Origin: Luteibacter sp. OK325
GTDB lineage: Bacteria; Pseudomonadota; Gammaproteobacteria; Xanthomonadales; Rhodanobacteraceae
Direction of reading: 5' to 3'
DNA length: 64,000 nt
Assembly: GCF_003050935.1 (NCBI RefSeq)
Contig: NZ_QAOX01000011.1
Location: 1-64,000, forward strand
Shown here: piece after piece, positions 3,016 through 62,645 of the stretch
Numbering within the stretch: position 1 is the first letter of the stretch
How the letters are laid out: each line of letters starts with the position of its first letter
Notes under the pieces: generated by a model
Told to the model about the DNA's origin: nothing
The model's database searches: none
Seen by the model: the letters and a program-made list of their open reading frames with translations, nothing else
Made by a program: the position numbers and the translations under genes

Positions 3016-4185
3016 TCAGAACGCGTTAATGCCAGTGAGTTCGCGGCCGACCACCAGCTGATGCACGGTCTCGGTGCCTTCGTAGGTGATGACCGATTCC
3101 AGGTTCAGCGCATGGCGGATGGCCGAATGCTCGGTGGTAATGCCGGCGCCGCCGAGGATGTCGCGACAATCGCGCGCGATGTCCAGTGCCATGCGCACAT
3201 TGTTCCACTTGGCCAGCGAGACCTGGGTCGGCTGCAGGCGGCCGGCATCCTTCAGACGACCGAGCTGCAGCGAGAGCAGCTGCGCCGTGGTGATGCGGCG
3301 GGCCATGTCGGCCAGACGGATCTGCACGGCCTGGTTGGCCGCCAGCTGGCGACCGAACAGGATGCGCTGCCCGGCATAGTCGAGCACTTCCTTCAGGCAG
3401 GCCTGCGCGGCACCGATCGGCCCCCAGGTGATGCCGTAGCGTGCCTGGTTGAGGCAGCCGAGCGGCCCCTTCAGGCCCTTCACGTTCGGCAGGCGGGCGC
3501 TGTCGGGCACACGCACGTCGTCGAAGAACAGGCCGGAGGTGACCGAGGCGCGCAGGCTCATCTTCTTGTGCACGACTTGCGCGGCGAAACCCTTGGTATC
3601 GGTCGGCACGACGAACCCCTGGATGCCGTCATCGGTCTGTGCCCAGACGATGGCGATATGCGCGAGATTGCCGTTGGTGATCCACATCTTGGCGCCGTTG
3701 ATCACCCAGTCGCCGCCATCCTTGCGCGCCACCGTTTTCATGTTGGCGGGATCGGAACCGCCGTGCGGCTCAGTCAGGCCGAAGCAGCCGATCACTTCGC
3801 CGGCGGCCATGCGCGGCAGGTACTCACGTTTCTGTTCGTCTGAGCCGTAGGCGAAAATCGGGTACATGCACAGCGAGCTTTGCACCGAGGCGAAGCTGCG
3901 CAGGCCGGAATCGCCGCGCTCCAGTTCCTGGCAGATCAAACCGTAGCTGACAGCGTTCATGCCCGCACAGCCGTATTCCTCAGGCAGCGTGGCACCGAGC
4001 AGCCCGAGCGCAGCGATCTCCGGCACCAGTTCGGCCGGAAAGCGGGCCTGGTCGAAAGCGTCGCCGATCATCGGCAGGACCTTTTCGTCGACGAAACGGC
4101 CGACGGTATCCTGGACCATTCGCTCCTCGTCGGTGAGCAGGGAACGGACGTCGTAGAGATCGAGGGGGTCGAGACGCTGAGCCAT
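3016..4185 (-). CDS. gcdH: glutaryl-CoA dehydrogenase-like acyl-CoA dehydrogenase
   Basis: FAD-dependent acyl-CoA dehydrogenase of 389 residues. Its closest recognisable relatives are glutaryl-CoA dehydrogenases, which oxidise and decarboxylate glutaryl-CoA to crotonyl-CoA in lysine and tryptophan breakdown. Seen: the N-terminal helical domain, the flavin-binding stretch GCFGLTEPHGGSDP, the WITNG motif, and near the C-terminus ITYEGTETVHQLVVGREL, whose Glu after Tyr is the expected catalytic base. The start ATG at 4185 gives a standard-length protein. First gene of a three-gene minus-strand operon with a GST and a fused E1. Substrate assignment is by sequence resemblance only; a second, less specific acyl-CoA dehydrogenase lies near 21.6 kb. 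Confidence 0.82.
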   Translation of the reverse strand: MAQRLDPLDLYDVRSLLTDEERMVQDTVGRFVDEKVLPMIGDAFDQARFPAELVPEIAALGLLGATLPEEYGCAGMNAVSYGLICQELERGDSGLRSFASVQSSLCMYPIFAYGSDEQKREYLPRMAAGEVIGCFGLTEPHGGSDPANMKTVARKDGGDWVINGAKMWITNGNLAHIAIVWAQTDDGIQGFVVPTDTKGFAAQVVHKKMSLRASVTSGLFFDDVRVPDSARLPNVKGLKGPLGCLNQARYGITWGPIGAAQACLKEVLDYAGQRILFGRQLAANQAVQIRLADMARRITTAQLLSLQLGRLKDAGRLQPTQVSLAKWNNVRMALDIARDCRDILGGAGITTEHSAIRHALNLESVITYEGTETVHQLVVGRELTGINAF

Positions 4186-4265: not shown

Positions 4266-5123
4266 TCAGCGCTCAGGCGCCGCCACCGCGCGGAAGCCGT
4301 AAGCCGGGAGGCGCTCCTGCGCCGCAGGGGACATGGCGTAGAGCGCGAACCGGTACGCCGCAGCGCTCCGCGCGGGGTCGCCGTCCCGCAGCACCACGCT
4401 CATGCCGTAGTCCACAGGCAGAGACAGGTTGGCGGGCACCTCGACCTTGCGCAGGTCCGGGTCGGGTGTCGCGTCATGTGAACTGCAGTAGCCAAAAAAC
4501 ACGTCGACGTCGTGGTGCTGGAGGAAGTACTTCGCCGCGCCCACGTTGCCCGGAATCGTGGGCGCGACCGGGCCACCGACCAGTTTCTTCGCTTTGGCTT
4601 CGAGGTTGGTGCGCGCGCCCGGATGGACGGTCTCCGCGCGAGCGAAGAATTGCCATGCGTAATCGCCTCCGGGATCCGCGCCGGGTGTCGACGTGCCGAT
4701 GCGCGTGCCGGGCGCCAGCAGGCGATCGAGCAGATTCGCGCTAGTGATTCCGGCGTCCGGCAGCGTCTGTACGCAAAGCGCGTTACGTGCGAATACCACC
4801 GGCGGCGTTGCCTTGCCCTCGCTGGCGAGTCTCTCCGGGTGTGCCATGTTGGCGGAGATGTAGACATCCGCCGGCTCGCCTTTCTCGATGCGTTCGCGCA
4901 GCAGGCCGGCCGGACCGTTGACGATACGTACCGGTTCTCCGGTCGTTGCCGTGTACTGTTTGGCGATGTCGGCAAGGGCTCCGGTCAGGCTGCCCGCCGC
5001 ATAAACGACGATGCCTGCCGGCGTGCTCGAGGTGGCCGAGGGCGCTGCCGCCGGAGGCGACGTCGCTGCGACGGCTGGGAGAACCACCAGCGCGCCAGCC
5101 ATCATCCATGTCGCCATCTTCAT
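4266..5123 (-). CDS. ModA-like periplasmic substrate-binding protein
   Basis: A 285-residue exported binding protein. Residues 1-20 form a signal peptide, then an Ala/Pro/Ser-rich linker to about 35, then a type II periplasmic binding fold of the ModA (molybdate/tungstate) family. The oxyanion-binding serine motif YAAGSLTGAL is present, followed by NGPAGLLRERIEKGEPADVY and an ISANMAHPERL stretch. No ABC permease or ATPase is adjacent, unlike modABC. Instead its start overlaps the stop of the TonB-dependent receptor gene by ATGA, so the two are translationally coupled. It may hand a ligand from the outer-membrane receptor to an inner-membrane transporter encoded elsewhere (inference). Whether the ligand is molybdate is not settled by the sequence. 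Confidence 0.78.
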   Translation of the reverse strand: MKMATWMMAGALVVLPAVAATSPPAAAPSATSSTPAGIVVYAAGSLTGALADIAKQYTATTGEPVRIVNGPAGLLRERIEKGEPADVYISANMAHPERLASEGKATPPVVFARNALCVQTLPDAGITSANLLDRLLAPGTRIGTSTPGADPGGDYAWQFFARAETVHPGARTNLEAKAKKLVGGPVAPTIPGNVGAAKYFLQHHDVDVFFGYCSSHDATPDPDLRKVEVPANLSLPVDYGMSVVLRDGDPARSAAAYRFALYAMSPAAQERLPAYGFRAVAAPER

Positions 5124-7234
5124 AGCAGGTCCACCTGGACCGACGCGCGTACCGTTCGCGGCGCGCCCAGCGTCGCCGTGGCGCTACCGGCGGCGTTGTA
5201 TCCATTCTGGCCGGCAGGGCTGACGTTAGCCCAGTAATGCCGGTCGGTGGCGTTGTCGAGCGCGAGACGGAAGGTCACGGGGTAGGTATGAATGCGCGTC
5301 TGGAAGCGTCCGCCGATGTCGGCCACGGTATATCCCTTCACGAAATAACTATTGGGGTAGTCGCCGGCACGGCGACCGGCGTGATTCACGTTGAGGGTCA
5401 GCGTGAGACCCGAGACCCACGGCAGCCGATACTCGATGAGGGAGTTGTAGACGACACGGGCCAGGCCGAGGATCTGCTTATCGCTGGTGCTGGCCGAGCC
5501 CGTTCGGTACAGGCGCGGGTCGAGCAATGAGACACCGGTGAAAATGGTCACGTCACGGCCGACATCCCCGTTCGCCGTCAGTTCGATACCGCGGTTCACC
5601 TGGCGCCCCTGCTGCGCAAACACATTGTCGGCACCGACGTAGGCATACGGACGTTCGATGCGATACAACGCAGCGCCAAGATCGATGCCTGCCACGCGAG
5701 CCTTGTAACCGGCCTCCCATTGTTTGCTGCGGTAGGGCGACAGGCTCTGGTTCACGTTCGCCGTGCCGGCGGGTGCGATATCGCCTTGCTGCAGGCTGTC
5801 CGCATAGGTGACATACGCCATCTGTGTCGGCACCAGCTTGAACATCACACTACCAGTGGGGCTGATACCGTGGGCATCGTAGGAGCTCGTCGTCGCCCCC
5901 TGGCGATTGTAATTGCGCACGTACAACCAGCTGTCGCTGGCAACCACCAGCGCCGACCACTGCTCGTCGAAACCGATGGTGTCGCCGAGCGAAATCGATT
6001 GCTGCTTCGTGTTCATCGACTTGTAGCGTTGCGAGAAGTCCGGCAGTCCCGGTTTCGCGAAAGAGACCGGAGCGTCGAGACTGGCGCGGCCGACGGTCAC
6101 CGGGCCGGTCGTGAGCGGTGTATAGCGGCTCCAGTAAAAGCCGTTGTTCGCGATGAGCAGGTCGTGGGTAAGCGGGCCGGTTTCCACGCGACCGTTCAAC
6201 GCCAGCATGTTGCTGACGATCATGTCGTAGCTGTATGTGGTGGTCGCCGCCGTCGTCGTGTAGTCACCGGCGTTGTCCGTCAGCGTATTGGTTGGCACCG
6301 TCGAACGCCGGTCGTTGCTCTCCTTCAGCACTCCGGCGCGGAAGGACCAGCGATCGTTGAACGCCGTGCGCAGGCGTGAGCTGACGATGCGGGTGATGTT
6401 GTCGTCACCACCCCAGGTTTGTCCGTAGCCTTTACGCGTCGGATCCGGCGCGGACGGCAGGACCACGCCGCGCCCCAGCGCGAACGTGCCCGGGAAACCG
6501 GTGGAGGTGTAGTGGTAGTAGCTCGCGTCGTTTTCCAGCACGGTGCTTTCACCGAGCCGCGCGTCGAAGGCAACGCTACCGAGGCGACGGGCGAGCCGGC
6601 TGCCATCCACGTAGCCCGGTCCGTTCTGGTCGAGCACGTTCACCCGGTATCCGAAGCGGTCGTCCACGCCGAAACGACCGCCGAGGTCGGCGTGGCCAAG
6701 CGCCGAGCCGCGCGAGTTGTAACGTACATCGAATTCGCGCAGCGGCGCGTCCGTGGGCCGCTTGAAGATGTAATTGAAGGTGCCAGCGGGACTGGCAGGG
6801 CCGTACAGCGCCCCAGCGAGGCCGTTCAGCACCTCGATCTGTTCGAACTGTTCGATCGGGTAATCGGTCGTGGCGGCAATATTGAGGCCGTCGATACGGG
6901 TGTTCTGGACGACGCCGGCCTGCAGGCCACGGCTCTGTGGCCGGATGTTTTCGCCCTGCACGGTCGGCAGGAAGCGGAACGCCTCGCGAACGCTTTGCAG
7001 CTGCTGATTGCGCGCGAGGTCGTTGTTCACCGCCTGCACCGAATACGGCGTATCCAGCGGTGAGCGATCGCCCAGCGGCCCCATGCCGACCTTTTCGGTC
7101 CGGTAGGAGGCCTGTCCGGCCTCCACCGTATAGCCCTCGAGATCCGTCTTCGGCGTGGCATCCTGGCCAAACACGGGCGATACGGTGAGACACAGCCATG
7201 ACAGCGACAGGAGGCGGCGCGGCCGGAAACGCAT
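5120..7234 (-). CDS. TonB-dependent outer-membrane receptor (siderophore-receptor type)
   Basis: A 704-residue TonB-dependent receptor. It has a signal peptide (1-23, ending VFGQ), a TonB-box-like start (LEGYTVEAGQ), a plug domain with DTPYSVQAVNND, RGLQAGVVQNTRIDG and LNGLAGALYGPASPAGTFNYI, then a 22-strand-type beta-barrel with the closing SVQVDLL strand. It ends in Leu-Leu rather than the terminal aromatic residue usual for BAM substrates. It belongs to the siderophore-receptor subfamily, but its coupling to a ModA-like binding protein suggests another metal or oxyanion complex. The start at 7234 has a CAGGG ribosome site 6-10 bases ahead. A LacI-type palindrome lies about 90 bp upstream. 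Confidence 0.88.
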   Translation of the reverse strand: MRFRPRRLLSLSWLCLTVSPVFGQDATPKTDLEGYTVEAGQASYRTEKVGMGPLGDRSPLDTPYSVQAVNNDLARNQQLQSVREAFRFLPTVQGENIRPQSRGLQAGVVQNTRIDGLNIAATTDYPIEQFEQIEVLNGLAGALYGPASPAGTFNYIFKRPTDAPLREFDVRYNSRGSALGHADLGGRFGVDDRFGYRVNVLDQNGPGYVDGSRLARRLGSVAFDARLGESTVLENDASYYHYTSTGFPGTFALGRGVVLPSAPDPTRKGYGQTWGGDDNITRIVSSRLRTAFNDRWSFRAGVLKESNDRRSTVPTNTLTDNAGDYTTTAATTTYSYDMIVSNMLALNGRVETGPLTHDLLIANNGFYWSRYTPLTTGPVTVGRASLDAPVSFAKPGLPDFSQRYKSMNTKQQSISLGDTIGFDEQWSALVVASDSWLYVRNYNRQGATTSSYDAHGISPTGSVMFKLVPTQMAYVTYADSLQQGDIAPAGTANVNQSLSPYRSKQWEAGYKARVAGIDLGAALYRIERPYAYVGADNVFAQQGRQVNRGIELTANGDVGRDVTIFTGVSLLDPRLYRTGSASTSDKQILGLARVVYNSLIEYRLPWVSGLTLTLNVNHAGRRAGDYPNSYFVKGYTVADIGGRFQTRIHTYPVTFRLALDNATDRHYWANVSPAGQNGYNAAGSATATLGAPRTVRASVQVDLL

Positions 7235-10243: not shown

Positions 10244-10325
10244 GGATGTCGGCTTGAAAGGACCAGCGGGGAGCTTAGTCCTTCGGGCGGGAGATCGGCT
10301 AGGTGGAGGGTTTCGCCAGCACCCA

Positions 10326-56301: not shown

Positions 56302-56325
56302 AGAAAGCCCGCTTAGGCACCTAGG

Positions 56326-56416
56326 TGGGAGCCACAGGTGGGATCCACATCTGGGATCCATATGTGGGATCCACATCTGGGAGCCACATGTGGGAGCCAC
56401 ATCTGGGAGCCACATG
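56326..56416. repeat. 13-bp tandem array, seven copies, derived from a REP head
   Basis: Seven units of TGGGAGCCACATG or its variants (AGCC/TCC, final TG/TC/GG). Units alternate between ATG and ATC ends, so a 26-bp higher-order period is visible. The array leads directly into a complete plus-oriented REP-like copy beginning GTGGGAGCC, whose first bases equal the unit. It looks like slippage expansion of that head. Confidence 0.9.
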
Positions 56417-56438
56417 TGGGAGCCGCTTCAGCGGCGAT
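56416..56438 (+). repeat. REP-like element ending the tandem array
   Basis: Plus-oriented GTGG-headed copy with CCGCT-TC-AGCGG and CGAT, immediately after the seven 13-bp units. Confidence 0.82.
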
Positions 56439-58035: not shown

Positions 58036-59097
58036 ATGAACGACAAAGCCCTTATCGTCGGAGCCAGCGGCATCATCGGCAGTGCACTCTCCGAAAGGCT
58101 TGTCGAAGACGGCTGGCCGGTGGCCGCCCTTGCCCGCCGGCCTGGCACGCAGACCGCCGTCCGGCCCGTCGCCGCCGACCTCACCGACGCCGAGGCCACT
58201 CGCGTGGCGCTTGCCGACCTCGCGCCGACCCACGTCTTCATCTCCACGTGGTCGCGGCAGGCGAACGAACGCGAGAACATCCGCGTCAACGCCGCCATGG
58301 TCCGTAACCTCCTCGACGGCGTGCGCCCGGCCGGCAGCGTTCGCCACGTCGCCCTGGTCACCGGCCTGAAGCACTACCTCGGGCCTTTCGAAGCGTATGG
58401 CAAGGGCGTGCTGCCCGAGACACCGTTCCGCGAGGAGCAGGGCCGCCTCGATGTCGACAACTTCTACTACGCGCAGGAAGACGAGGTGTTCGCCGCCGCC
58501 GCGCGCGATGGCTTCAACTGGAGCGTGCATCGCCCGCATACCGTCATCGGCGTGGCGGTGGGCAACGCCATGAACATGGCGACGACGCTCGCCGTCTATG
58601 CCTCCATCTGCAAAGCCACCGGCCGGCCATTCCGCTTTCCCGGCTCGGCTGCGCAGTGGCAGAGCCTTACCGACATGACTGACGCGCGCCAGCTGGCTCG
58701 TCACCTGGTCTGGGCGTCCACGACGCCGGCAGCCGCCAACGAAGCCTTCAACGTCGTGGATGGTGACGTCTTCCGCTGGAGCTGGATGTGGTCGCGCATC
58801 GCGTCGTGGTTTGGCCTGGAAGCCGCACCCTTTGATGGCGAGGTCTTCCCCCTCGAACAGCAGATGGCCGACGATGCCGACGTATGGCGGCATTTGGCAA
58901 CACGCCATGGCCTGGTTGAAGCGGACATGCATCGCCTTGTTTCGGCGTGGCACAGCGACGCCGACCTGGGCCGTCCCATCGAAGTCGTCACCGACATGTC
59001 GAAGAGCCGCCGCCTCGGCTTCCTTGACTACCAGCCCACCGACCACGCCTTCTTCGACGCCTTCGAGCGCCTGCGCGCGGAGCGCCTGATTCCCTGA
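58036..59097 (+). CDS. PRISE-family NAD(P)-dependent reductase (progesterone 5beta-reductase/iridoid synthase-like)
   Basis: 353 residues. The Rossmann motif is GASGIIGSALSERL (8-21). Diagnostic features of the plant progesterone 5beta-reductase/iridoid synthase (PRISE) branch are TGLKHYLGPFEAYGKG (catalytic Lys112), NFYYAQED (Tyr144/145), WSVHRPHTVIGVAVGNAMN, LAVYASICKATGRPFRFPG and AWQSLTDMTDARQL-type strands. Members reduce activated enones (1,4-reduction), some broadly. Bacterial homologues exist, mostly uncharacterised. Divergent from folA; probably a single gene with no obvious partner. Confidence 0.85.
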   Translation: MNDKALIVGASGIIGSALSERLVEDGWPVAALARRPGTQTAVRPVAADLTDAEATRVALADLAPTHVFISTWSRQANERENIRVNAAMVRNLLDGVRPAGSVRHVALVTGLKHYLGPFEAYGKGVLPETPFREEQGRLDVDNFYYAQEDEVFAAAARDGFNWSVHRPHTVIGVAVGNAMNMATTLAVYASICKATGRPFRFPGSAAQWQSLTDMTDARQLARHLVWASTTPAAANEAFNVVDGDVFRWSWMWSRIASWFGLEAAPFDGEVFPLEQQMADDADVWRHLATRHGLVEADMHRLVSAWHSDADLGRPIEVVTDMSKSRRLGFLDYQPTDHAFFDAFERLRAERLIP

Positions 59098-59127
59098 CCC
59101 GACCCGCCGGCAGGGCCCACGTCCGCC

Positions 59128-59154
59128 TGTCCGCCGGACGTTTGTCCGCGGACA
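59128..59154. promoter_or_regulatory. two palindromic sites upstream of the sigma-54 promoter (candidate enhancer sites)
   Basis: TGTCCGCGGACA (59143-59154) is a perfect 12-bp palindrome. TGTCCGCCGGACG (59128-59140) is the same half-sites with one extra base and one mismatch. They lie 44-70 bases upstream of the -24 box. Paired dyads of this kind fit an activator of sigma-54. Confidence 0.6.
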
Positions 59155-59197
59155 GGCCGCCGGCGGGGGCGAGGACCGCGCGGCGCCGCGAAGCCTA

Positions 59198-59213
59198 TGG
59201 CATGCACCTTGCA
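59198..59213 (+). promoter_or_regulatory. sigma-54 (-24/-12) promoter of the permease pair
   Basis: TGGCATGCACCTTGCA agrees with the RpoN consensus TGGCACGNNNNTTGCW at every defined position except one (C to T at the sixth). GG at -24 and GC at -12 have the exact spacing. Transcription would start near 59224, 28 bases before the permease ATG at 59252. Confidence 0.85.
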
Positions 59214-59251
59214 AAGCTACCCTGAGGAAGACACCACAGGGATCGCCAACG

Positions 59252-60559
59252 ATGTTCGGTTACTACGTGCAACTCGGGCTCCGCAGCCTCAGGCGCAATC
59301 CGGTCCTCACGCTGTTGATGGTGCTGGTGATCGCCGTGGGCGTCGCGGCGTCGATGACGAGCTATGCCGTGTTCCGCGTGACCTCGGGTGATCCCATCCC
59401 GGAAAAGTCGTCGCAGCTGTTCATCGCGCAGATCGACAACTATGGCCCGGAGGGCAGCGACGGCGATCCGTTGCCGTGGCTGACCTGGCGCGATGCGACG
59501 GCGCTGGTCAATGCACACAAGGCGAAGCGGCAGACGCCGCTCTATCCGATCGCTGTGTCGATCGTTCCGGACGATCCCAACACGATGGCCTCGCCCGCAC
59601 GTGGTTATGCCGTGCAGGCCGACATGTTCCCCATGTTCGACGTACCGTTCCTTTTCGGCGCTCCCTGGTCGGCGGCCGACGATGCGGGTAGCGCGAGAGT
59701 AGTGGTCATCGGCAAGAACCTTAACGACCGCATGTTTGGTGGTGCGAACAGCGTAGGACGCGAGATCGACCTCGAGGGCACACGCTTTCGTATCGTCGGC
59801 GTCACCGATCGCTGGGATAGCCGTCCACGTTTCTTCGATCTCGACACGCGGCAGAAAGGCTTCGGCGATCTCGGCGAGATCTACATGCCATTCGCTCGTG
59901 CCATCGCCGACGGTCGCGAGCCCTCCGGCGGCAACGTATGCAACCGTCCTTCGAAGCCAGGCTGGGACAATTTCGTCCATTCCGAATGCATCTTCGTCAG
60001 TTTCTGGGCAGAGCTTCCCGATGCCGCGAGCGCGACGGCGTACCGGCAGTTCCTGCACGACTACTCGGCCGAACAGACCCGAAGCGGTCGCTTTTCGTGG
60101 GCACCGAACGTACGGCTGCGCAACGTGATGGAATGGCTGGACTTTCGCAAGGTCGTACCGGCGGAAGCCCGCATGAGCGTATTGGTCTCCGCCGCCTTCC
60201 TCGTCATCTGCCTGGTCAACGTCATCGGCTTGCTGCTGGCCAAGTTCATGCGCCGTGCGCCGGAGATCGCCATACGGCGGGCGCTCGGTGCATCGCGTGG
60301 CGCCATCTATGCGCAGTTCCTGCTCGAGGCGGCCTCCGTCGGACTCGCTGGTGGCCTGCTCGGGGTCATTCTTACGGCGCTGGGGACCTTGTGCATCGGT
60401 GCCGTGTTCGATCCGGCGATTGCCAACCTCGTCCACATGAGCCTGCCCCTGCTTAGCCTTACTGTCCTCGTCGCCCTGGCCAGCACGTTGGTCGCGGCCT
60501 TCTATCCCACCTGGCGCGCCTCACGGGTGCAGCCGGCATGGCAGCTCAAAGCCAGCTGA
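59252..60559 (+). CDS. MacB-like ABC transporter permease, first of a pair
   Basis: 435 residues. One N-terminal membrane helix (about 18-38, TLLMVLVIAVGVAASM) is followed by a large periplasmic MacB-PCD-type domain (about 40-300) and three C-terminal helices with the FtsX-like core (IAIRRALGASRGAIYAQFLLEAA). MacB/FtsX-type permeases work as mechanotransmission machines with an ATPase and usually an adaptor, to export peptides or lipids. No ATP-binding gene is adjacent in the window. It lies behind a strong sigma-54 promoter and 13 bp before the second permease. Confidence 0.88.
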   Translation: MFGYYVQLGLRSLRRNPVLTLLMVLVIAVGVAASMTSYAVFRVTSGDPIPEKSSQLFIAQIDNYGPEGSDGDPLPWLTWRDATALVNAHKAKRQTPLYPIAVSIVPDDPNTMASPARGYAVQADMFPMFDVPFLFGAPWSAADDAGSARVVVIGKNLNDRMFGGANSVGREIDLEGTRFRIVGVTDRWDSRPRFFDLDTRQKGFGDLGEIYMPFARAIADGREPSGGNVCNRPSKPGWDNFVHSECIFVSFWAELPDAASATAYRQFLHDYSAEQTRSGRFSWAPNVRLRNVMEWLDFRKVVPAEARMSVLVSAAFLVICLVNVIGLLLAKFMRRAPEIAIRRALGASRGAIYAQFLLEAASVGLAGGLLGVILTALGTLCIGAVFDPAIANLVHMSLPLLSLTVLVALASTLVAAFYPTWRASRVQPAWQLKAS

Positions 60560-60572
60560 CCCGGAGCTCCCT

Positions 60573-61808
60573 ATGCCACCTTTCCGTCCCATTCTTGCCG
60601 CCCTCCGCTATCACAAGTCGGGCGCCCTTCTCATCGCACTGCAGGTGGCGCTCACGCTCGCCGTGGTCTGCAATGCATTGTTCGTCATCGAGCATCGGCT
60701 GCAACGCCTGTCGCGCGACACCGGTGTCGCCGAGAGCGAGCTGATGGTGGTGAACAACAAGTGGGTCGCTCCCGCCGCCGAACTGCCGGCGCGCCAGGCC
60801 GCCGATGTCGCCATGCTGCGCGCGCTGCCCGGCGTTGCGGATGCCTACGCGACAAACGCGTTTCCGTTGATGGGAGGAGCCTGGCAGAGCGGCGTGCGGC
60901 TCGACCCGACCAGCCAGCACTACGTCAGCGAAGGCGCGTCGATCTACTTCGTCGACGACCACGCGCTGAATACCCTCGGGGTCAAGGTCACCGAAGGCCG
61001 CAACTTTCGTTCCGACGAGATCGGCGCCCTCGTGCCGAACGGCAGTCCCGACACCCCGTCGATCATCATTACGCGCGCCCTGGCCCGGCGTGCCTTCCCC
61101 GACGGCCATGCACTCGGCAAGGCGTTTTATATCGGCAACCGTGATGCACGCCCGAGCACGATCGTCGGTATCGTCGAACACGTGCAGACACCGCAAACCG
61201 ATAGCTCAGATGACATCTACTGGAATGATTCGATCTTCGTACCGATGCGTCTCACCGGCAGTGGCGCGTTCTTCGTCATACGTGCGCAACCGGGCCGGCT
61301 GCCTGCACTCTTGCATAACGTTCCCGATGCGCTGAAGGCGCTGAGCACGCGCCGCGTGATTCCGGCACCGCATGGCGTGCTCGCTTTCAGCGAGGTGCGC
61401 GACATGGCCTATCGTAGCGACCGCGGTCTGGCCTGGATGCTCGCCGGCATCTGCGTGACCCTGCTCGTCGTTACCGCCGCCGGCATCGTGGGACTGACCA
61501 GTTTCTGGGTGGGCCAGAGGCGCCGACAGATCGGCATTCGCCGTGCCTTGGGCGCGACCCGGCGCGATATCCTCGTGTATTTCCTCACCGAGAACGGGCT
61601 CATCAGCCTCGCGGGAGGTCTTGCCGGCGTCGTGCTGGCGTTCGCGCTCAACGCCTGGATGATGAAGGCCTTCGAGACCTCGCGGCTCTCGCTGCTCTAC
61701 GTCGGCGGCGGCATGTTGATCCTGTTGTTGCTCGGGCAACTCGCTGTGCTGTCGCCTGCCCGGCGCGCGTCACGCGTACCGCCCGTGGAAGCAACGCGGA
61801 CGATCTGA
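60573..61808 (+). CDS. MacB-like ABC transporter permease, second of a pair
   Basis: 411 residues with the same architecture: an N-terminal helix (about 18-38, LLIALQVALTLAVVCNALFV), a periplasmic domain with the family's VGIVEHVQT strand, and three C-terminal helices with FtsX motif QIGIRRALGATRRDILVYFLTENG. Together with the preceding protein it would make a heterodimeric permease. Ends six bases before the convergent SMP-30 gene. Ligand unknown; ATPase not in the window. Confidence 0.88.
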   Translation: MPPFRPILAALRYHKSGALLIALQVALTLAVVCNALFVIEHRLQRLSRDTGVAESELMVVNNKWVAPAAELPARQAADVAMLRALPGVADAYATNAFPLMGGAWQSGVRLDPTSQHYVSEGASIYFVDDHALNTLGVKVTEGRNFRSDEIGALVPNGSPDTPSIIITRALARRAFPDGHALGKAFYIGNRDARPSTIVGIVEHVQTPQTDSSDDIYWNDSIFVPMRLTGSGAFFVIRAQPGRLPALLHNVPDALKALSTRRVIPAPHGVLAFSEVRDMAYRSDRGLAWMLAGICVTLLVVTAAGIVGLTSFWVGQRRRQIGIRRALGATRRDILVYFLTENGLISLAGGLAGVVLAFALNAWMMKAFETSRLSLLYVGGGMLILLLLGQLAVLSPARRASRVPPVEATRTI

Positions 61809-61814
61809 GTCACT

Positions 61815-62645
61815 TCAGCGGCGAACGCAGAACAGCCCACCGGCACCCGGACTGGCCTGCAACACCGCGTCGGACAGTCGCGCTCGCGAGGTTGAAACGT
61901 ACGCCCCGCCCTGCCGGTTGAAGCACAGGCTGCCGACATGCGGGGCGGGAATCGACACAAGCTCGTCCACGGCACCGTTCGCGGCAAGTCGCACGATGCA
62001 TCCGCCGCCCCACATGGCGACCCACACCGAGCCGTCAGGATCGATCGCCATGCCATCGGGCTTGCCGGGTGCGCCAAGGAAGTCGGTGACTACCCGTGGT
62101 TCGTCCAGCGCCAGGTCTTTGCCGGGGCGAGGATAAGAAAGCAAAGTGCGGCCAAGCGTGTCGATCACCAGGAGTGACGCGCCGCCATCGGCGAACGCCA
62201 TGCCATTGGCCACGCCGAGACCATCGGCAACCTGCACCACCGGGGCGTCGACATCGGCCGCGTAATAGAGCGCACCCTTTCCGGTCAGCAAACCGCGATG
62301 CATCGAGCCTGCCCACAGGCCGCCTTCGGCATCGACGACCATATCGTTGAGTCGACAACCTGCCGCCAATGGCGCACGCGTCATGGCCGAGAGGGCACCG
62401 GTACGCACGTCGATGAGGCAGAACCCATCCTCACCCGCACCGACCCAGGATCCATCGGGCCGCTGCGCCAGCGACCAGATCGGCATGGACAAGACGATGT
62501 CCCGAACGATTCCCTCTGACGCGTACCAGCGCAGCAGACGACGGTTCGGCGGGTCGACCCAGAGCACGTCGTCTCCGTCCATGCGCACCGCTTCACCTAC
62601 CAGTGCATGCGGCTGGGCGATCAGGGTCACTTCACGCCTGCTCAT
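61815..62645 (-). CDS. SMP-30/gluconolactonase family sugar lactonase
   Basis: 276 residues of a six-bladed propeller: GEAVRMDGDDVLWVDPPNRRLLRW (E-x...W-x-D), the metal-ligand RLNDMVVDAEGGLWAGSM (Asn), NGMAFADGGASLLVIDT (Asn), and KPDGMAIDPDGSVWVAMWGGG (Asp). Hydrolyses a sugar-acid lactone to the acid; next to a 2-dehydro-3-deoxygalactonokinase it may open galactono- or related lactone (inference). Its ATG overlaps the stop of dgoK by ATGA. Confidence 0.88.
   Translation of the reverse strand: MSRREVTLIAQPHALVGEAVRMDGDDVLWVDPPNRRLLRWYASEGIVRDIVLSMPIWSLAQRPDGSWVGAGEDGFCLIDVRTGALSAMTRAPLAAGCRLNDMVVDAEGGLWAGSMHRGLLTGKGALYYAADVDAPVVQVADGLGVANGMAFADGGASLLVIDTLGRTLLSYPRPGKDLALDEPRVVTDFLGAPGKPDGMAIDPDGSVWVAMWGGGCIVRLAANGAVDELVSIPAPHVGSLCFNRQGGAYVSTSRARLSDAVLQASPGAGGLFCVRR

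Follow-up and report, generated by a model that had tools for sequence, protein, structure and literature searches.

A MacB-like permease pair of Luteibacter as a probable module of a dispersed, dyad-marked sigma-54 exporter regulon

The stretch of DNA considered here (the window, 64 kb in length) corresponds to C11:1-64000 of a 4.94-Mb, 21-contig Luteibacter genome, the rest of which was searched by pattern and by protein. Towards its end two consecutive genes encode MacB-like permeases, and they are preceded by a sigma-54 (RpoN) promoter and two inverted repeats, hereafter dyads (Table 1). The original prediction, made from the letters of the window, had described this control region as a 15-of-16 RpoN site with one perfect and one imperfect dyad upstream, and direct reading agrees with it. 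The promoter is the sole sigma-54 site with up to two mismatches in the window under a scan that demanded TGGC, then A or C, and TTGC, and no sigma-70-like site was found in 58900-62000, where 0.4 were expected from shuffles. Transcription is predicted, from promoter geometry only, to start at 59224.

Both permeases score above the Pfam gathering thresholds for MacB_PCD and FtsX, and their hydropathy fits four membrane helices, the first two of which enclose a large periplasmic domain. In NCBIfam each of them matches a different half of the ADOP duplicated permease (TIGR03434), N-terminal in one case and C-terminal in the other; with 160.7 and 185.8 bits against a cut-off of 622.3, and with ADOP being one fused protein, their assignment to this family was rejected. 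The absence of an adjoining ATPase, adaptor or regulator gene, part of the original prediction, also stands, as none is evident among the neighbouring open reading frames (ORFs). Taken together with the evidence given below, the two genes probably (at about 0.8 by our estimate) encode a heterodimeric permease unit of the MacB/LolCE type, which would be a module of a dispersed exporter regulon controlled by a two-component system and sigma-54.

Table 1. Features of the permease locus and of the promoters assigned to the candidate regulon (unprefixed positions are those of the window; aa, amino acids).
Feature	Position	Strand	Remarks
Imperfect dyad TGTCCGCCGGACG	59128-59140		Direct reading; one mismatch against TGTCCGNCGGACA; predicted upstream half of a twin activator site
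Perfect dyad TGTCCGCGGACA	59143-59154		Predicted target of the sigma-54 response regulator whose gene lies at C11:108578-109972
Sigma-54 (-24/-12) promoter TGGCATGCACCTTGCA	59198-59213	+	One mismatch in the fixed positions of TGGCACG-N4-TTGC
Permease A, 435 aa, MacB_PCD and FtsX	59252-60559	+	55.5% identity with A1, the first operon permease
Permease B, 411 aa, MacB_PCD and FtsX	60573-61808	+	50% identity with B1, the second operon permease
Promoter 1	59143 (dyad)		Permease pair
Promoter 2	C11:117257-117268	-	Adaptor-ATPase-A1-B1-A2-B2-response regulator-kinase operon
Promoter 3	C1:623085 (perfect dyad)		Two small-protein genes, 27 and 64 codons
Promoter 4	C3:388437 (one-mismatch dyad and sigma-54 site)		475-aa secreted-looking protein
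Promoters 5 and 6	C10 and C15		CGTCCGCGGACA and near-consensus sigma-54 site at 94 bp; small-protein genes, 45 and 44 aa

The missing ATPase and activator had been expected elsewhere in the genome, and both are encoded on the same contig in an operon (C11:107165-117268) headed by the same perfect dyad and a consensus sigma-54 site. The two dyads lie about 58 kb apart and the operon ATPase is about 53-56 kb from the window pair. The operon encodes, in order, an HlyD-like adaptor, an ATP-binding cassette (ABC) ATPase, the permeases A1, B1, A2 and B2, an NtrC-type response regulator and a HAMP kinase. The adaptor meets the periplasmic adaptor model TIGR01730 of RND/ABC systems (121.5 bits, cut-off 94.9). 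The regulator consists of a receiver, a sigma-54 AAA+ domain and a Fis-type helix-turn-helix; its top NCBIfam match is the PEP-CTERM regulator PrsR (TIGR02915) with 332.1 bits, which is below the equivalog cut-off of 502.6, and the identity was rejected. In the kinase Pfam shows only HAMP and ATPase domains and no sensor domain, and hydropathy indicates two membrane helices with a short periplasmic loop. RpoN is encoded once in the genome.

The association of the dyad with this operon extends to relatives. An ortholog of the regulator is present in 177 of 197 family genomes. Among 45 named loci recovered through the window permease, 40 contain the adaptor gene, and a perfect dyad lies within 300 bp upstream of the adaptor match in 27 of these and a one-mismatch dyad in two more. 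In all 14 loci labelled Stenotrophomonas the dyad is perfect and the sigma-54 site takes the form TGGCACG-N4-NTGC. The position of the dyad directly upstream of the adaptor supports autoregulation of the operon by the regulator it encodes, which would bind there. Around the main operon dyad there are extra TGTCC/GGACA half-sites in Luteibacter (L006, about 10273-10298) and Stenotrophomonas (L141, about 3827-3860), joined in L006 by a shorter TGTCCGGACA dyad; this arrangement suggests multi-site binding.

Two published systems were compared with the operon and set aside. As regards SmaCDEF of S. maltophilia (PMC11356428, PMC12189255), whose published primers were compared with the Stenotrophomonas loci of the operon, no locus among L116-L148, a set that does not include strain K279a, matches both primers within four mismatches; single four-mismatch matches occur in L120, L125 and L131. 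The BtuD importer of Lysobacter, as far as described in the part of PMC6538783 consulted, belongs to another gene cluster.

The original prediction had further proposed that the dyad could reveal a regulon, and a scan of the genome for the dyad together with an RpoN site did return further copies. Three perfect dyads occur, against about 0.57 perfect 12-mer dyads expected per genome, and a sigma-54 site lies 43-65 bp beyond all three, where about 0.0006-0.0012 was expected for each. A relaxed pattern matches seven places in the genome and none in the control, and six of these precede genes assigned to the regulon (Table 1); the reversed control pattern has no match in the genome or in the 197 family genomes. 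Each of the 24 one-mismatch dyads of the genome was inspected for a sigma-54 site, and the C10 and C15 copies were located with a profile of the small proteins. The seventh relaxed match (C11:127936-128027, L290) lies inside a coding frame with no regulon-like gene behind it and is treated as chance. Likewise, a fourth, gapped dyad TGTCCGCCGGACA (C1:564994-565006) overlaps a match to an ABC ATPase, has no good sigma-54 site near it and is read as chance. MacB-type permease genes are also found at C2:305177-306496, C5:43578-44894 and C1:638125-639438, and a second permease-like ORF follows each of these three. About 3 kb from the C2 pair is an ORF that looks, by eye, like a sigma-54 activator.

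The same combination of dyad and promoter recurs in 82 of the 197 family genomes under a strict pattern and in 73 of 250 order genomes under a second one, with no control match in the former and none shown in the latter; the matches outside the family of Luteibacter comprise 27 genomes of one family (f2) and three of another (f4). Downstream of 30 family loci (L011-L040) an adaptor gene is found in 12, a permease in six, a small protein in two and a DUF4097-type gene in two. Among 40 further promoter sites 38 precede a regulon-type gene, the others being L272 and L290. All 16 sites inspected of the 27 in f2 (L255-L270) precede the same operon; of two inspected in f4, L271 precedes the operon and L272 shows nothing recognised. 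As these lists were drawn from the pattern itself they are no test of it. An independent check comes from loci found by protein. All three named orthologs of the window pair found in this way (L104, L105, L107) have a dyad and a sigma-54 site, as do all 14 small-protein loci from outside the genus among the 30 best profile matches, 13 with a perfect dyad and one with a mismatch.

The spacing between dyad and promoter appears constrained as well. Over 134 family places, many of which are orthologous and not independent, the distance from the start of the dyad to the end of TTGC, for which the pattern allowed 62-93 bp, is confined to 62-63, 69-71, 80-85 and 89-92 bp, with none of the 134 at 64-68, 72-79 or 86-88. 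The clusters are separated by intervals resembling helical turns, and the phase concentration at a period of 10.5 bp is 0.81, compared with at most 0.27 among 20,000 uniform simulations. The window promoter, with 70 bp, falls inside one of the clusters, and its dyad presumably lies on a helical face compatible with the activator. A box WATCARNNNNTTR, which we take to match the consensus of integration host factor (IHF), stands at fixed offsets between dyad and promoter in 31 of 50 distinct sites with 89-92 bp (4.2% of shuffles) and in six of 13 with 80-85 bp (6.2% of shuffles). It occurs in one of 14 short sites, and the window promoter has none.

In relatives the promoter stands before several kinds of gene. 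Permease pairs follow it in many loci, either within the operon, which then has two or three pairs (L051-L053), or in stretches that contain neither an adaptor nor a close relative of the ATPase (L042-L045, L056, L058, L059, L075-L080, L283 and L292). TolC-type channels are found by family scan in L054 and L284, and L041, L046 and L057 encode proteins 55-57% identical to that of L054. Other genes behind the promoter include homologs of the 475-aa protein, 32-34% identical (L047-L050), a serine-carboxypeptidase-like protein (L055), an alpha/beta hydrolase (L280), DUF885 proteins (L293 by scan, L294 alike by eye) and DUF4097-type proteins (L022, L015). By eye, the start of the 475-aa protein resembles that of a secreted protein. 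It has no Pfam or NCBIfam match, and an assignment to M61 peptidases, made by eye, was dropped for this reason.

Small-protein genes also stand behind the promoter type in relatives. In the Luteibacter genome four small membrane proteins of 27, 64, 45 and 44 aa are encoded behind three of the promoters. By hydropathy the 27-, 64- and 44-aa proteins each have a single helix, and the 45-aa protein has a longer hydrophobic stretch that may comprise more than one. In 11 sequences of the 64-aa type E4, L6, L8, R9 and L11 are invariant and are followed by a hydrophobic stretch, a variable linker and the motif C-x-x-P-x-D-G-x-x-C close to the C-terminus. Over the first 27 codons of 14 same-genus copies of this type the differences at codon positions 1/2/3 number 167/13/746, and over 13 copies of the 27-aa gene 304/113/374, a pattern consistent with translated genes under purifying selection, more weakly so for the 27-aa gene. 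The profile finds the family in 115 of the 197 family genomes and 20 of 26 genera, the best E-value being weaker than 1e-4 in four of the 115. Two copies were scanned, the 27- and the 64-aa protein; neither belongs to a Pfam family, and NCBIfam yields nothing meaningful for them. Two loci show further genes nearby, namely an M16 peptidase gene (L005 8049-10970) divergent from the small-protein promoter and, after the small-protein genes of one relative (L275), an NlpC/P60-domain gene (443-1831) and a serine beta-lactamase-family gene (4505-5653).

The question of which motor would serve the window pair can be approached through the segments expected to face the ATPase. MacB has its major coupling helix between the transmembrane helices TM2 and TM3, and its C-terminus provides a minor one (PMC5985334, as far as consulted). 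Among 84 A-type permeases, orphan and operon-encoded, the least variable 15-residue windows are TM2 with the coupling helix, then the N-terminal segment and the C-terminus; among 66 B-type permeases they are the coupling helix with TM2, then TM1 and the C-terminus. Between the window pair and the first pair of the operon identity is 81% in the TM2-coupling segment of both subunits, 94% (A) and 67% (B) in the N-terminal segment and 79% (A) and 68% (B) at the C-terminus, and it is 49% (A) and 40% (B) in the periplasmic domain. The predicted ATPase-facing segments are thus kept while the periplasmic domains have diverged, as would be expected for one motor with a changed substrate domain, and we infer that the window pair borrows the ATPase of the operon.

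A course of events can be proposed on this basis. The kinase would be activated through the membrane, by the transporter, by the small proteins or by a membrane-active and probably peptide-like compound, and would phosphorylate the NtrC-family regulator, which would then bind the dyads. The bound regulator would contact RNA polymerase with sigma-54, assisted at many of the longer promoters by IHF-mediated looping, and the whole set would be induced. The window permeases could then recruit the operon ATPase, the HlyD-like adaptor and a TolC into a tripartite pump with a substrate domain of its own, which would clear membrane-active or peptide-like compounds from the periplasm. The hydrolases induced in relatives might degrade the compound, and the small proteins might tune the kinase or the pump. 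The role of the regulon is probably envelope defence by export, and defence against peptides is favoured because of the MacB-, ADOP- and DarD-like parts and the hydrolases; the substrate and the role of the small proteins are suggested by analogy. A fuller version holds that an ATPase-adaptor-TolC core powers interchangeable, scattered permease pairs, that one dyad ties the set together with the small proteins, and that these act as MgrB-like feedback or sensing subunits of the sensorless kinase; this more specific proposal is tentative and we regard it as possible rather than probable.

Several observations weigh against the interpretation as an exporter regulon. Dyads with up to one mismatch are just about twofold more frequent than in the control (27 versus 12). 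The three permease pairs on C2, C5 and C1 have no dyad and no sigma-54 site and were left out, so not every orphan pair belongs to the regulon. A dyad with up to one mismatch is missing from 11 of the 40 adaptor operons, ten of which are labelled Luteimonas, Arenimonas or Pseudoxanthomonas. Similarly, eight of the 30 loci L011-L040 have no recognised regulon gene downstream, and no genome of the order sample beyond three families matched the second pattern. Periods of 8, 9 and 12 bp also give a phase concentration of 0.63-0.71, which is due to the 78 places among the 134, many of them orthologs, that sit at 91-92 bp, and the empty gaps between the clusters are consequently the better evidence. 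Conservation of the coupling helices is general in MacB-family permeases and is no proof of a common ATPase, and five other ATPases, 43-50% identical to that of the operon, top the list of matches in the genome. The kinase signal, the substrate and the small-protein role rest on analogy, and binding, expression and transport in the regulon are predictions from sequence.

Other explanations accept much of the same evidence. The regulon could be as described and the permease pair could be a signalling or mechanical module, BceAB- or FtsX-like, working with or without ATP, which senses flux for the kinase or activates a periplasmic enzyme and is not a pump. Kinases that sense through a transporter share a small-loop, sensorless build, and the operon kinase, with no sensor domain in Pfam and a short loop by hydropathy, fits such a role, as do the many permease pairs alongside one ATPase; but the segments predicted to face the nucleotide-binding domain are kept in the orphan pair, and adaptor and TolC genes stand behind the same promoter type, which points to export; we rate the signalling module as rather unlikely. 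Secretion of a peptide is another option, in which the small proteins or peptides cut from them would be the cargo, the transporter, TolC and proteases would export and mature it, and the kinase would sense the product. It agrees with the top NCBIfam match of the operon ATPase, which is DarD (256.7 bits, cut-off 375), with a weak match of the adaptor to DarC, with the variable linker and conserved two-cysteine C-terminus of the 64-aa protein, and with the serine-carboxypeptidase-like gene that follows such a promoter in a relative. What is conserved in the small proteins, however, is largely a membrane helix rather than a core that could be released (helix makes up nearly all of the 27-aa protein), the operon follows 16 of 16 inspected sites in f2, where the 2.5 kb covered showed no recognisable small protein, and no modification-enzyme gene was noticed next to the small genes, though without a systematic scan; we consider a secretion system quite improbable.

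The dyad might also be bound by a different, unlinked activator, the linked regulator controlling something else. Related activators are plentiful, since in most genomes the search for the regulator at first returned dozens of candidates, and seven of the 20 genomes without a regulator match still fit the promoter pattern, which counts against the linked regulator as well; six of these seven are in 110-680 contigs and one in a single contig. Set against this, the dyad lies directly upstream of the regulator-encoding operon in 27 of the 40 named loci, in two families, and an unlinked activator seems very improbable. On balance the reading of the original prediction, that of a putatively stress- or antimicrobial-inducible export system completed by parts encoded at a distance, is supported by the sequence comparisons as regards the location of the ATPase and activator and the regulon marked by the dyad; the small membrane proteins, TolC, the hydrolases and the stepwise spacing are aspects that it had not foreseen.

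The surroundings of the window pair are of other kinds. The upstream neighbour is an epimerase/PRISE-type gene (Pfam), and the downstream neighbours on the opposite strand are SMP-30-like, sugar-kinase-like and SDR-like ORFs, named by eye. Further upstream, at window 56325-56424, a 13-bp tandem repeat GTGGGAGCCACAT of 7.7 copies with a 26-bp higher unit sits just past the end of an enoyl-CoA-hydratase-like frame, an ORF read by eye.

What looked like an incomplete transporter becomes, on this analysis, a testable module within a conserved regulon, parts of whose gene set recur in a second bacterial family (f2). A shared motor that is switched on simultaneously offers a possible way for ATPase-less MacB-type permeases to work. 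The NtrC-family regulator gains a candidate consensus site and a list of targets, with an operon part common to Stenotrophomonas, and the small-protein family gains a defined operon, a promoter and candidate partners for a search for its function. In a word-based search of the open-licence literature no description was found of the dyad, the cognate regulator, the scattered plug-in permeases or the small-protein family. The sigma-54 link is already known at the level of gene categories. A 2025 survey (PMC12316311) reports sigma-54 enrichment for the COG0577 ABC 'antimicrobial peptide' permeases in gamma-Proteobacteria and Bacteroidia and, in the part consulted, calls it the first such evidence. 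The survey differs from the present work in resting on COG-level statistics; its main text contains no xanthomonad-, rhodanobacter- or lysobacter- words, and in the part consulted these permeases are not linked to a dyad, a cognate regulator or small proteins.

Among known systems the darobactin exporter DarBCD resembles the operon in the ATPase and adaptor matches given above. As a description of the operon parts it was rejected, since both matches (59.7 of 450 bits for DarC) fall under the curated cut-offs; no darobactin permease model matched the window permeases at E 0.001 and no darobactin-type precursor or maturase was recognised. For the small proteins the likeness is to MgrB, a small membrane protein that inhibits PhoQ and mediates peptide sensing (PMC10576120, as far as consulted). 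MgrB has a single helix and two conserved periplasmic cysteines and is induced by the two-component system whose kinase it inhibits. The 64-aa type alone has this form, with a single helix, two periplasmic cysteines and a place in the same regulon as the kinase; unlike MgrB, the small proteins occur in several copies per genome, and the likeness is one of form, with no sequence relation or homology claimed. The sugar importers served by MsmK/MsmX likewise include several ATPase-less permease sets that use one ATPase encoded elsewhere (PMC8579813, in the part consulted), but these are importers of another ABC type, whereas the permeases here are of exporter type and their sharing is a proposal. 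The closest parallel is with the type VII ABC systems MacAB-TolC and LolCDE, as the regulon comprises MacB_PCD and FtsX permeases, an HlyD/MacA-like adaptor and a LolD/MacB-like ATPase, with TolC following this type of promoter in relatives. It differs from them in that ATPase and permease are separate genes, the permeases come in two-gene pairs, and several pairs, some of them encoded far off, are present for each ATPase gene.

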